A stretch of DNA of 50,893 nt from positions 1 through 50,893 of the IMG/VR virus record IMGVR_UViG_3300025133_000158, one strand, 5' to 3'. Position 1 is the first letter of the stretch; each line of letters opens with the position of its first letter. The position numbers and the translations under genes were made by a program. Positions 27,392 to 43,273 of the stretch are shown here, piece after piece. The notes beneath the pieces were generated by a model. It was not told where the DNA came from, did not search any database, and worked only from the letters and a program-made list of their open reading frames with translations. Source of the stretch: a virus.

Positions 27392-27847
27392 ATGAAAACT
27401 TTTAAACAACATTTAAACGAGCAATTATTACAACCAATATTTGCACCGGCGTATCACAAACAATCTAATATAGATTCTAGTGGAAGATTTATTAAGATTA
27501 TGTCCGATGGTTCAACAACACCATACACTTTAAATGATGCTCCTAATAAAATGGATGTTCATAATTTGATTGATAGTATTATTGAAAGGATTGTAAAAAA
27601 ACGCGCACCGTGGTTTGGCGAACCAGGGCCAAGCCATTTTAAAAAAATGAAAAAGGATGTTCAAGATTTGATTGATGGTGGAAAAGTTCATACAGACCCC
27701 AATTATAATGCGTGGATGTTAGAAGCATTAAAAGACGCACTTCATCAATTCGAGCAAATTGAATGGATGTTGAATGTACCAGATGTACCAGAAGGCGAAC
27801 AAGTCGATGACTTTGGGGGCTTTGGGATAGGTGGTGGTGGAATTTGA
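27392..27847 (+). CDS. Putative capsid-targeted internal protein (leader ending LNE)
   Basis: 151 residues. I start it at the ATG at 27392 (GGAAACAAACA upstream); the frame extends upstream only inside gene 15. The first ten residues MKTFKQHLNE look like the capsid-targeting leaders of T4 internal proteins (MKTYQEFIAE in IPIII), ending at an (L/I)xE site for the prohead protease and followed by Gln. The mature part would hold a helical domain (MDVHNLIDSIIERIVKKRAP, HFKKMKKDVQDLIDGGK, MLEALKDALHQFEQIEWMLN) and a Gly tail (DDFGGFGIGGGGI). No known domain is apparent. It sits between gp15 and the terminase genes, where T4 has nothing of the kind. Confidence 0.75.
   Translation: MKTFKQHLNEQLLQPIFAPAYHKQSNIDSSGRFIKIMSDGSTTPYTLNDAPNKMDVHNLIDSIIERIVKKRAPWFGEPGPSHFKKMKKDVQDLIDGGKVHTDPNYNAWMLEALKDALHQFEQIEWMLNVPDVPEGEQVDDFGGFGIGGGGI
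27393..27420 (+). repeat. 28-base direct repeat, copy 1
   Basis: Exact match to 27845-27872. It begins at the TG of the ATG start of the putative internal protein and covers the coding sequence for its KTFKQHLN leader. Exact identity over 28 bases within 450 bases suggests recent duplication or selection at the leader. Confidence 0.95.
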
Positions 27848-27966
27848 AAACTTTTAAACAACATTTAAACGATTGGGCAACAAGTCTTCGGCTGAATGCT
27901 CTCGAAAGGTTTAGACAACGAATAAGAAGCGGAATTATTGATGTATTACAACCAGAGGAATTATAA
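27844..27966 (+). CDS. Forty-residue peptide sharing the same leader, TTG start
   Basis: A 40-codon frame starting at TTG 27844, which overlaps the upstream stop as TTGA, and ending in the TAATG that also starts gene 16. The product begins MKTFKQHLND and continues WATSLRLNALERFRQRIRSG to a final QPEEL, a basic amphipathic helix. The eight leader residues after the start match the preceding gene exactly, but the site residue is Asp rather than Glu, so protease cleavage may be lost. The tight fit between two genes and the repeat support a real translated peptide or a remnant of a duplicated cargo gene. Confidence 0.5.
   Translation: MKTFKQHLNDWATSLRLNALERFRQRIRSGIIDVLQPEEL
27845..27872 (+). 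repeat. 28-base direct repeat, copy 2
   Basis: Exact copy of 27393-27420, positioned identically relative to the start codon (TTG here, ATG in copy 1). Sequence diverges directly after the repeat. Confidence 0.95.
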
Positions 27967-28439
27967 TGGCAAAGAAAAAAGTGAATGAAAGAATTAGTGA
28001 AGCACTAAACATTGATGATAATATTATTGAAGAACCCGAAGTAATAGAAGTAATAGATGCAGAAATTGTTCATGTGATTGAACCAGAAAAGAACATCAAA
28101 CAAGTTCATATGGAAAAGGACTACACCGATGTTCGGGACAGCCTAAAAGAAATTATAGAAAAGGGTTCTGTTGCAATTGACGGCATTCTTTCTGTTGCAT
28201 CTGAAGGTGAATCACCAAGAGCATATGAAGTTGTATCCCAACTAATCAAAAGTGTTTCGGAAGCAAACAAAGACCTAATTGGTTTACACAAACAAATTAA
28301 AGACATCAAGAAAGAAGATATTACTGTAAATCGACATAATACAACAAATCAATCTATCTTTGTTGGTTCTACCAAAGAATTACAAGACCTTGTAAAAAAT
28401 AATGCAAAACAGATTGAAAATTTGACAGACGATGCCTAG
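27966..28439 (+). CDS. 16: Terminase small subunit gp16
   Basis: 157 residues (T4: 164). Recognisable blocks: [60 protein letters not shown] and a C-terminal [19 protein letters not shown]. The central pair of antiparallel helices is the ring-forming core; gp16 regulates gp17 and recognises DNA during packaging. The N-terminal 45 residues are acidic. It overlaps gene 17 by 8 bases, consistent with coupled translation. Confidence 0.93.
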
Positions 28440-30102
28440 AAAAAATCACGATTCCGATTCATATCTTGGAAACAAGAATCTAAAATCATCAGATGTTCCA
28501 GTAGACTATACAAAAGAACAAGTCGAAGAATATCTGAAGTGTGCGGCTGACCCCATACATTTTATTGAAAAACATGTTCAAATTGTAAATGTTGATGAAG
28601 GACTAGTCCCTTTTGATATGTACGATTTCCAAAAGGATATGATTGAAAAGGTCCACAATAATCGTTTTGTAATTGCAAAACTTCCACGACAGTCTGGTAA
28701 ATCCACAACAATTATCGCATATCTGCTTCACTATACTTTGTTTAATCCAAGTGTAAATGTTGCCGTACTTGCAAATAAACTTGCAACTGCAAGAGAACTT
28801 CTTGGCAGATTAAAACTTGCTTATGAACATCTTCCTAAGTGGATGCAACAGGGAGTTATAGAATGGAACAAAGGTTCTATTGAATTAGAAAACGGTTCAA
28901 AGATTCTGGCATCTGCGACATCCTCCAGTGCAGTTCGTGGTGGTTCATTTAACATGATTTTCATGGATGAATTTGCATACATTCCACAAGGTGTTGCAGA
29001 AGAATTCTTCAGTTCGGTTTATCCTACCATTTCATCTGGTAAAACCACAAAGGTTCTTATTGTATCAACTCCCAAGGGATTGAATATGTATTACCGAATG
29101 TGGATGGATGCAGTTGAAGGAAAGAACAGTTATGTTCCTATTGAAGTTCAATGGAATCAAGTTCCCGGCAGAGATAAAGAATGGCGGAAACAAACAATTG
29201 CAAATACTAGTGAAGAACAATTTAGAACAGAATTTGAATGTGACTTCATCGGTTCTACTAATACACTAATATCTTCCCTCAAATTAAAATCTATGGTATA
29301 TAGAAAACCCATACATCAAAACGATGAAGGGTTGAAAATGTATGAAGAACCACAAAAAGACCACATGTATTTTATGGGAGTTGATGTTGCGAGAGGAACA
29401 GGTTTAGATTATCATGCATGTGTAGTTGTTGACATCACAAACGATGATGAACCGTTTAGGATTGTGGCCACATTTAGAAATAACGAACTTTCTCCAATGG
29501 TGTTTCCTACCGTTGTGCATTCTTTATGCAAACAATTTAATGACGCCTATTGTATGATTGAAATTAATGATATTGGCGGCCAGGTAGCAGACTTAATGCA
29601 CAGTGATTTTGAATACGAACATCTTCTTATGACCACCATTCGAGGAAGAAAAGGTCAAACTCTAGATGGTGGATTTGGTAAGGGTGGTTCTCAATTGGGC
29701 ATGAGGACAACACAAGCAACCAAAAGAGTAGGATGTTCTAACCTAAAAAACCTTATTGAAGAGGATAAATTAATTATTGATGATTTTGATGTAATTGATG
29801 AACTTATATCCTTCGTCGCTAAAAGGAACTCGTTTGAAGCAGATGGGGGACACACAGACGACTTAGTGATGTCTTTAGTGTTGTTCGCGTGGTGTACTAC
29901 ACAGCAATATTTTAAAGATATGCTAAATATGGATGTTAGAAAAATATTATATGAAGATAAATTAGAGCAAATTGAAGCAGAGATGACACCATTCGGATTT
30001 ATAGATAATGGTAGAGGGGATGAATATGAGGTTGATGTTGACGGAACGGCATGGCAAAATGTTAATGATGACGATGGTGTGGGTAATTTCTTCTCTACAT
30101 AA
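28432..30102 (+). CDS. 17: Terminase large subunit gp17
   Basis: 556 residues (T4: 610). ATPase: Walker A RQSGKST at 86-92, Walker B MIFMDE at 175-180, coupling motif VSTPKG near 211-216. Nuclease: GVDVARG with an acidic residue at about 318, a middle block [13 protein letters not shown], and [20 protein letters not shown]. It is the packaging motor docked on the portal and cuts the concatemer at the end of packaging. The C-terminal 55 residues are acidic. An 80-base gap follows before the sheath gene. Confidence 0.96.
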
Positions 30103-30156
30103 ATGAAATACCGAAAAATGATATATATTTTAAGAAAACACATATAGTGTAATAGA

Positions 30157-42264: not shown

Positions 42265-42289
42265 ACTCCCCTTCGGGGGAGTTTTTTTA
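42265..42289 (+). terminator. Intrinsic terminator after the cargo-like gene
   Basis: Seven-base stem ACTCCCC / GGGGAGT with a TTCG tetraloop (stem arms 42265-42271 and 42276-42282), then a run of T. The last T of the run is also the first base of the next late promoter. Confidence 0.92.
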
Positions 42290-42295
42290 TAAATA
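42288..42295 (+). promoter_or_regulatory. T4-type late promoter TATAAATA abutting a terminator
   Basis: Exact TATAAATA, beginning within the T run of the terminator and 16 bases before the ATG of the next gene. GTGGAG follows as ribosome site. Confidence 0.78.
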
Positions 42296-42311
42296 CTAGT
42301 GGAGAACAATC

Positions 42312-42848
42312 ATGACTACAGAACTTCCAGGACTAAGCCCGACGCTATCAACCGATATTACAACAAGGCAACCGTCTAATACAAACTATGTTTTAAACAC
42401 AGGATTCTATTTTAATATATTTAGAATGCCTAATGTACAATACTTTTGCCAAGAAGCAAACCTTCCCGGCGTTAATGCGGGAGAGATTAGACAACCAACA
42501 AGATTTATAGATGTCAAACACCCAACCACCAAATTAAGATTTGATGAACTTAATATATCTTTTATTGTAGATGAAAATTTAGAAAACTGGAGAGAGTGTT
42601 TTGACTGGTTAAAAAGTATAGTAAATATAGAAGATACTACAGATTTTCTAAGTCCAGAAGACCATTATTCTGATGCAACACTAACAATACTAAATAGTAA
42701 TATGAGAGAAAATGTCAGGGTAAAATTTAAAAACTGCTTCCCAACAAATCTAACTGGTTTGCAGTTTTCAACAACCCCTTCGGATTCAGAAACACAAACA
42801 GCAACATTAACTTTAATGTTCGATTCGTATGAGGTAGAAAAAGTATGA
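42312..42848 (+). CDS. Tail-tube-like virion structural protein
   Basis: 178 residues. The pattern FYFNIFRMPNVQYFCQEANL PGVNAGEIRQPTRFIDVKHP, then LRFDELNISFIVDENLENWR ECFDWLKSI and a final strand block SETQTATLTLMFDSYEVEKV is that of tube-like proteins in marine T4-like phages. It resembles the gp19/gp54 class more than gp3, but I cannot separate gp3, gp54 or a second tube-like initiator by eye. It has its own exact late promoter and overlaps the next gene by ATGA. Likely role: tail tube initiation or completion. Confidence 0.72.
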   Translation: MTTELPGLSPTLSTDITTRQPSNTNYVLNTGFYFNIFRMPNVQYFCQEANLPGVNAGEIRQPTRFIDVKHPTTKLRFDELNISFIVDENLENWRECFDWLKSIVNIEDTTDFLSPEDHYSDATLTILNSNMRENVRVKFKNCFPTNLTGLQFSTTPSDSETQTATLTLMFDSYEVEKV

Positions 42849-43273
42849 AGTCTATAAAACAAATATTATCAGAAGCAAATTATATGATTGAATTATCAGA
42901 ACAATCATCTAGTAATATTAATGATGAACTGGCGGCGAGGTTGGCAGCGGCAGAAGCGAGGATTGCAGAGTTGACCGCGGAAGAGGAGGATAGTTGGATA
43001 GATGATGAGCGCGCAAAACAAATTAATGCTCTCATTCAACAAACACTACAAGATGCTGATGCAAAAAGTAAGACAATTGGTCCTCCGAATCACAAAACTA
43101 CTCCTACCTTTGAAATTGATATGAACAATGGTCTAGGAAAACTTCCTGATATGAACCTTGGATTTGATTTGGATTTAAACATTCCAGAAGATGAGCCTGT
43201 AAATGACATCGGTTGGGGTTTTGGTGAGAGTGACCCATACTATTTTGATTCAGATACTCCTTGGGGGGGTTAA
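42845..43273 (+). CDS. Putative capsid-targeted internal protein (leader ending LSE)
   Basis: 142 residues. The leader MKSIKQILSE is very close in layout to MKTFKQHLNE at 27392 and to T4 MKTYQEFIAE; a second site (IELSE at 15-19) is followed by Gln. The mature part begins with a Ser-rich stretch, then a helix (DELAARLAAAEARIAELTAE EE), then an acidic region with Asp-Leu repeats (LGFDLDLNIPEDEPVNDIGW) and an aromatic/Gly tail (ESDPYYFDSDTPWGG). The tail recalls the Gly tail of the 27392 protein. No enzyme motif. It shares ATGA overlap with the tube-like gene, so it is made late, in keeping with a head protein. Confidence 0.72.
   Translation: MKSIKQILSEANYMIELSEQSSSNINDELAARLAAAEARIAELTAEEEDSWIDDERAKQINALIQQTLQDADAKSKTIGPPNHKTTPTFEIDMNNGLGKLPDMNLGFDLDLNIPEDEPVNDIGWGFGESDPYYFDSDTPWGG

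Follow-up and report, generated by a model that had tools for sequence, protein, structure and literature searches.

In bacteriophage T4 the first 10 residues of the internal protein IPIII, its capsid targeting sequence (CTS), are sufficient for packaging, and the prohead protease gp21 cuts after the motif (L/I)xE (PMC9026906). The T4 proteins Ip1–3 have only the leader in common and block distinct GmrSD enzymes (PMC12373910). In phiKZ-like phages and SPN3US, a large set of head proteins likewise has N-terminal propeptides cut by a prohead protease (PMC9026906, PMC5694885); these belong to a different phage lineage and are likened here by description. Virions of cyanophages contain cytidylyltransferase/NMNAT-like proteins, a kinase, a SAM hydrolase and a Cas9-like protein, for which no targeting mechanism has been given, and the authors of the S-CREM2 and S-SCSM1 studies could not exclude carry-over from the lysate (PMC10665884, PMC9602691). 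A T4-type leader system is described here in IMGVR_UViG_3300025133_000158, a 50.9-kb virus fragment from IMG/VR (50,893 nucleotides; this whole stretch is termed the window) that contains the late region of a T4-like myovirus.

The late genes of the window encode gp13-, gp14- and gp15-like connectors, terminase (27966 and 28432; genes are named by their start position), sheath, tube, portal, prohead protease, scaffold and major capsid protein. The nearest portal proteins of isolates are from cyanophages and show at most 56% identity to that of the window. Closer uncultured relatives were used as the comparison set, the most useful being L006, L007 (contig G001, 118.5 kb), L178, L179, L185, L186 and L254–L262; the contigs of these relatives are incomplete. 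Gene calls were made with a simple script and start codons are uncertain in places.

Six genes of the window have a short N-terminal leader ending in (L/I)xE. We consider it probable, at about 0.7, that they encode internal head proteins whose portable leader docks on the prohead core and is cut by gp21, and that the core protein 34324 works on the same principle. The set is regarded as a real and large extension of the T4 internal-protein system. The leader, a module joined again and again to unrelated bodies, would dock its cargo on a core of the gp22/gp67/gp68 type, and the shell would close around the docked cargo. The gp21 protease would then cut after (L/I)xE, usually LxE followed by Q, and leave the mature cargo next to the DNA inside the head, from where it may be delivered or ejected. 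The same protease would free the cargo modules of 34324, which lie between ES(Y/V)..LxE linkers. The six leader genes are:

27392–27847, + strand: orphan gene of 151 aa between gp15 and gp16, leader MKTFKQHLNE followed by Q (predicted cut before Q).
36543–36896, + strand: leader gene, MKTGQIDFITE followed by Q, with a Pro/Gly-rich body.
37216–37614, + strand: leader gene, two-site leader MRFDTNLYE / ERQYWIQNVQLRE / Q, with an Ala-rich body.
37630–38307, + strand: leader gene, two-site leader MRFNTNLCE / SRQQWIQNVALYE / Q; the leader is like that of 37216, the body largely different.
41903–42238, + strand: leader gene read from an internal start, MNLNE / QLQHAYSAGYYRALYE / Q; the longer open reading frame starts at 41825.
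42845–43273, + strand: leader gene, MKSIKQILSE / ANYMIELSE / Q.

The N-terminal sequences named in the original prediction are all present in the window. T4 propeptides are 10–19 residues long and end in (L/I)xE, and the six leaders (10–22 residues) are short propeptides of this kind. The leader of 27392 is the nearest in the set to the T4 CTS, MKTYQEFIAE; 27392 and 42845 match the hydrophobic spacing pattern of the CTS and the two-site leaders do not. An ortholog of 27392 in L179 retains a leader (MKSYKQLLE, then S) at an overall identity of 33%. The leader of 42845 is identical at 20 of 20 positions in L255 and L257, with bodies 62%–64% identical. In orthologs of 36543 the leaders differ, yet most retain the (L/I)xEQ junction before the Pro/Gly-rich body. 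The 41825 gene has two plausible starts, ATG 41825 behind AAGGAG and ATG 41903 behind GAGGAG; the latter yields MNLNEQLQHAYSAGYYRALYEQ, and a homolog at G001:9035 begins at this second start.

As had been predicted for most of these proteins, no recognisable domain was found: none of the six has a Pfam match, and PHROG matches up to E 0.1 were weak and uninformative. Pfam and PHROG searches also gave no homology of the mature parts to IPI, IPII, IPIII or Alt. The bodies have a Gly+Pro content of 21%, compared with 11% in other window proteins, and two of them have a hydrophobic Gly/Ala stretch in common. The AlphaFold model of 37630 is poor (mean pLDDT 48), with the leader helix predicted at low confidence. 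With bodies that for the most part are rich in Gly and Pro and have no recognisable domains, the originally predicted roles of the cargo (ejection with the DNA, shaping of the DNA, a protein "arsenal") are conjectural. By analogy, T4 cargo that blocks host restriction enzymes and has only the leader in common may be a natural precedent for rapid cargo turnover.

The likeness to T4 IPI, IPII, IPIII and Alt thus lies in a short N-terminal (L/I)xE leader, unrelated mature proteins and a gp21-family protease. The present clade differs in having many more genes and several leader types, including two-site leaders of 20–25 residues ending in LxE followed by Q; in the interspersion of the genes among gp15–gp23, with a separate cluster in G001; and in cargo that is mostly Gly/Pro-rich without known domains.

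The motif was found to be enriched in the leader genes. It is present in the first 25 residues of all six orphan genes, compared with 10 of the 35 window genes outside the orphan and head-core groups (Fisher, 0.0018). When the six sequences were shuffled with their composition kept, 0.94 of 6 had the motif on average (p = 5e-5), and with the limit tightened to 12 residues, five of six orphans have it (0.41 expected). A search across the genome of a relative, as the original prediction had proposed, gave an excess in G001: within the first 24 residues, 26 of 133 genes have (L/I)xE with Q, A, S or K as the next residue, where 7.4 would be expected (binomial, 2e-8). The tail and metabolism genes account for 4 of 76 and the remaining unannotated genes for 21 of 44. 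In a more distant T4-like contig, G003, there was no significant excess (9 of 110, 5.9 expected), and therefore the leader excess belongs to the clade of the window and not to T4-like phages in general. The leader genes had been described as spread through the structural cluster; this holds for the clade, but G001 has in addition a second, separate leader cluster at 5.8–17.2 kb of the contig.

Close relatives have differing sets of small orphan genes with (L/I)xE leaders, inserted at many points of one gene order: gp15/gp16, gp18/gp19, gp20/core gene, core genes/gp21, gp23/second tube gene, and beyond. Four leader types recur: the T4-like MKxFKQxLxE; MNLYEKYNLLxEQ; MKRLxxK...LxE...LxE, with its relative MRFxTNLxE...LxEQ; and a two-site form, NDKLLREAYEAGRRxxLNEQ. 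Among 46 leader proteins there are 974 pairs whose bodies show no blastp similarity. N-termini of 31 of these pairs reach a Smith-Waterman score of at least 50, compared with none of the matched internal controls (45 pairs and one control at a threshold of 40). As read from these alignments, the same leader is joined repeatedly to unrelated bodies.

The LREAYEAG core was used in a collection-wide scan with a degenerate DNA pattern. Copies that stand at a true N-terminus with LxE behind them come only from the contigs of L006 (two) and L186 and from L276 and L316, which are of this clade or have the same leader; all other matches in the scan lie inside unrelated proteins. Isolate phages searched with the 20-residue two-site leader gave no match.

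The residue after the last leader site (P1′) is Q in 28 of the 46 leaders, compared with 5% Q in the bodies. The candidate maturation site of gp23 has the same form, KAL(N/Q)E then Q, in most phages of the clade, and all nine clade gp23 sequences compared show (A/I)xE or ALxE followed by Q. The original prediction of a gp21 protease in the window was confirmed by Pfam and PHROG. The protease, its neighbors and the gp23 site are:

38317–38961, + strand: gp21-type prohead protease, peptidase S77 (Pfam PF03420, E 3.4e-37; PHROG head maturation protease, 1.7e-77).
39034–40158, + strand: gp22-type scaffold (Pfam/PHROG searches).
40238–41695, + strand: gp23-type major capsid protein.
40376–40384, + strand: LNE of the probable gp23 maturation site, KALNE followed by QAQN (cut after E49).

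With the shared leaders, ortholog conservation, the gp23-like P1′ residue and the lack of excess in G003, a T4-like targeting leader on unrelated proteins appears well supported at the level of sequence. Leader conservation in homologs is seen for 42845 and 27392, and not for two genes, 36301 and 34324, discussed below.

Cyanophage virion proteomes offer experimental data on related leaders. The non-structural proteins with T4-type leaders in S-CREM2 virions include a SAM hydrolase, a kinase, a cytidylyltransferase and a Cas9-like protein. Their N-termini read MKNFSSFLTE (then A), VKRFDAFLTE (then E) and MKDFDSFLEE (then F); the Cas9-like protein has RFASFMAE (then A) from residue 18; and two other virion proteins start with MKDLHSFLTE (then Q) and MQTFSMFFSE (then D). 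The leader-bearing virion proteins of this phage (L270/L271, OR473000) are gp6, gp12, gp13, gp14, gp136 and gp154. Shell and tail sets excluded, 180 proteins were compared: of the 10 that have a T4-like leader pattern in the first 16 residues, 5 are present in the virion, compared with 10 of the 170 without it (Fisher, 4e-4). T4-type leaders may explain the non-structural proteins in S-CREM2 virions, and by analogy the proteome supports, as independent experimental evidence, the idea of leader-based packaging. Like the proteins of the present clade, the S-CREM2 and S-SCSM1 virion proteins bear leaders (MKxFxxFLxE type); they have been detected in purified virions and their cargo consists of recognisable enzymes (PMC10665884, PMC9602691).

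Several points weigh against the proposal that the six genes encode internal head proteins. Packaging in this phage is a prediction from its genes. The motif is weak: about 20% of 25-residue windows would contain it by chance. As the leaders are related by descent, neither the pair counts nor the P1′ counts represent independent events, and the comparison of G001 regions was framed after the contig had been read (the whole-contig test was not). Whereas the T4 internal proteins are basic, most of the bodies are acidic or neutral and rich in Gly and Pro. Ten S-CREM2 virion proteins have no leader, and the S-CREM2 pattern was drafted after some of these proteins had been read. For this last reason S-SCSM1 served as a new test: the NMNAT of its virion, whose sequence was consulted afterwards to test the prediction, begins with MKSFLQFLKEAA (MKSFLQFLKE, then A), and several other S-SCSM1 virion proteins are without leader.

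The main competing explanation, which we consider unlikely, is that the leaders do target the prohead core but what they bring there helps assembly: the proteins would be additional core or scaffold components that, like gp22, gp67 and gp68, are degraded or expelled during maturation. The leader genes do adjoin core, protease and shell genes, the low-complexity Gly/Pro-rich bodies would suit a filler or scaffold, and several leader proteins have additional (L/I)xE sites. However, the sites are concentrated at the N-terminus and occur in the bodies of the same proteins at background rate (about 0.22 vs. 0.20), whereas gp22 has sites throughout; gene content is highly variable among close relatives, unlike that of assembly factors; and the S-CREM2 leader proteins stay in the virion.

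It is improbable that the N-terminal segments serve not as gp21 substrates but as helices for docking on a different virion surface (neck, tail or shell exterior). Some leader genes adjoin tail genes, e.g. the tail-tube paralog, and the low-confidence helix would fit docking, but the conserved positions are precisely the L and E of a gp21 site with the P1′ Q of gp23, and the 36543 junction is retained while the residues before it change.

Chance, i.e. a common motif with matches selected by the reader, does account for 36301, 34324 and the FmdB-like gene 36899, and is a most improbable explanation for the six orphan genes, for which as a set it is refuted by the window enrichment, the pair scores, the G001 excess and the conservation of the 42845 leader.

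The original prediction had counted at least seven leader genes, of which the six listed here stand. Genes 34324 and 36301 encode the two core proteins that almost every T4-like relative examined has between gp20 and gp21:

34324–36300, + strand: core protein of 658 aa in the gp67/gp68 position; modules are inserted between its conserved N- and C-terminal blocks.
36301–36546, + strand: second core protein, 81 aa, with an acidic EF-hand/dockerin-like C-terminus.

In 36301, "NLHE" is replaced in homologs by NLLDAK, KLNDAK or NLSGAK, and "YLIE" of 34324 aligns with mostly non-LxE N-termini across relatives. Because the aligned homologs mostly have no LxE there, neither is a conserved leader. The LxE in "MPLYE" of 36899 was also judged to be chance; we take its LYE to be part of the usual MPLYEYxC start of the FmdB family. 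A match of the core type to a prohead core family is weak (the L007 homolog to PHROG 1064, "prohead", E 0.0036).

The core protein 34324 looks like a polyprotein cut by gp21. Its homologs have in common a helical block at the N-terminus and a further block at the C-terminus; what lies between differs, with chain lengths of 143 aa (L003), 274 (L186), 363 (L007), 390 (L179), 483 (L178), 564 (L006) and 607 (L185). The middle modules are separated by ESYLYE, ESYLNE, ESVELDE, ESVQLDE or ESYQLDE. In the window the linkers are:

35026–35043, + strand: ESYLYE, residues 235–240, predicted gp21 site at a module boundary, in low-confidence linker 232–245.
35266–35286, + strand: ESVELDE, residues 315–321, predicted gp21 site at a module boundary, in low-confidence linker 315–323.
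35821–35838, + strand: ESYLNE, residues 500–505, predicted gp21 site at a module boundary, in low-confidence stretch 392–520.

Modules are shuffled among phages: residues 233–304 of 34324 are found at residue 87 of L181 with 98.6% identity, and residues 399–514 at residue 90 of L006. AlphaFold shows small alpha/beta units between low-confidence stretches, in which all three linkers lie, in a model that is weak as a whole (pLDDT 60.6); stretch 392–520 is poorly modelled and also contains a sequence-conserved module, so the model is weak there. Over all LxE sites the overlap is only suggestive (8 of 15 in low-confidence linkers vs. 35% of residues), and the argument is based on the ES(Y/V)..LxE linkers and the module shuffling instead.

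No recognised enzymatic domain was found in 34324 or in nine homologs and neighbors; only DUF5824 was above threshold, in distant homologs. In the more distant core proteins L047 and L053 a DUF5824 module lies between linkers of the same kind. No 34324 homolog was found in the isolate phages searched. Foldseek gave nothing below E 0.04 against the PDB, with weak ferredoxin/ACT-like matches of single modules, and weak matches to viral models including a DUF5824 protein; no functional use was made of these.

Tentatively, and at slightly less than even odds, 34324 would be a scaffold carrying a changeable string of cargo modules that gp21 cuts in the closed head. Cargo would then be loaded in two ways, as leader-tagged single proteins and as beads on a scaffold, and the distant marine T4-like phages L047, L053 and L011 would have the same design, with a DUF5824 module also present in phage cytidylyltransferase proteins. 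Like T4 gp67/gp68, 34324 lies between gp20 and gp21 and has a conserved helical N-terminal block; it differs in having several small alpha/beta modules between linkers, which vary by phage. Polyvalent proteins are likewise multi-domain and thought to be packaged and injected, with processing into parts proposed (Iyer et al. 2017, PMC5512222), whereas 34324 has no recognised enzymatic domain and its parts would be separated at linkers by the prohead protease and not by a built-in peptidase.

Other observations concern the same proteins. Cytidylyltransferase and DUF6267-like genes adjoin in several T4-like marine phages: L265 (Melnitz-2), L266 (S-RIM2), L267 (P-SSM2) and G001:112496–117533. Their proteins often have MKxFxxFLxE-like leaders, and modules in common with core proteins (DUF5824-like, CWDTH...NCVPK and HMMYDPKTGKGYKA). 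Several leader cargo proteins in relatives terminate in EF-hand/dockerin-like repeats (DxDGDGVIxxxDL), which are found at L007:18286–18837, L186:6180–6542, L051:2911–3900 and 11511–11903, and L168 (G001:117533); the acidic C-terminal motif of 36301 resembles them and matches several PHROGs. The proteins at 37630–38307 and L178:16288–16839, otherwise different, have in common a C-terminal tail, VESYKNRNHxCLREQFYGF, with a further LxEQ; the tail may represent either a propeptide at the C-terminus or the scar of a recombination event. Within the second leader cluster, G001:14862–16502 (L162) encodes a second gp23-like protein of 546 aa; where the two match it is 53% identical to the major capsid protein, and it may be a minor or vertex protein of the capsid. 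A second tail-tube paralog at 42312–42848 (PHROG 45, E 6.7e-40), 3′ of the major capsid gene, is kept across the clade.

Internal proteins are the means by which T4-like phages deliver counter-defence proteins to the cell along with their DNA, and this uncultured T4 relative probably uses the leader as a label to load proteins into the head next to the DNA. The core-protein polyprotein, if true, would be a second way of loading a phage head, of which no earlier report was found in the literature searched. The leader also offers a mechanism for the cytidylyltransferase/NMNAT, kinase, SAM hydrolase and Cas9-like proteins whose reported presence in cyanophage virions has been unexplained. With a readable label that predicts which proteins a virion carries, many "hypothetical proteins" of uncultured marine phages would become candidates whose packaging can be tested.

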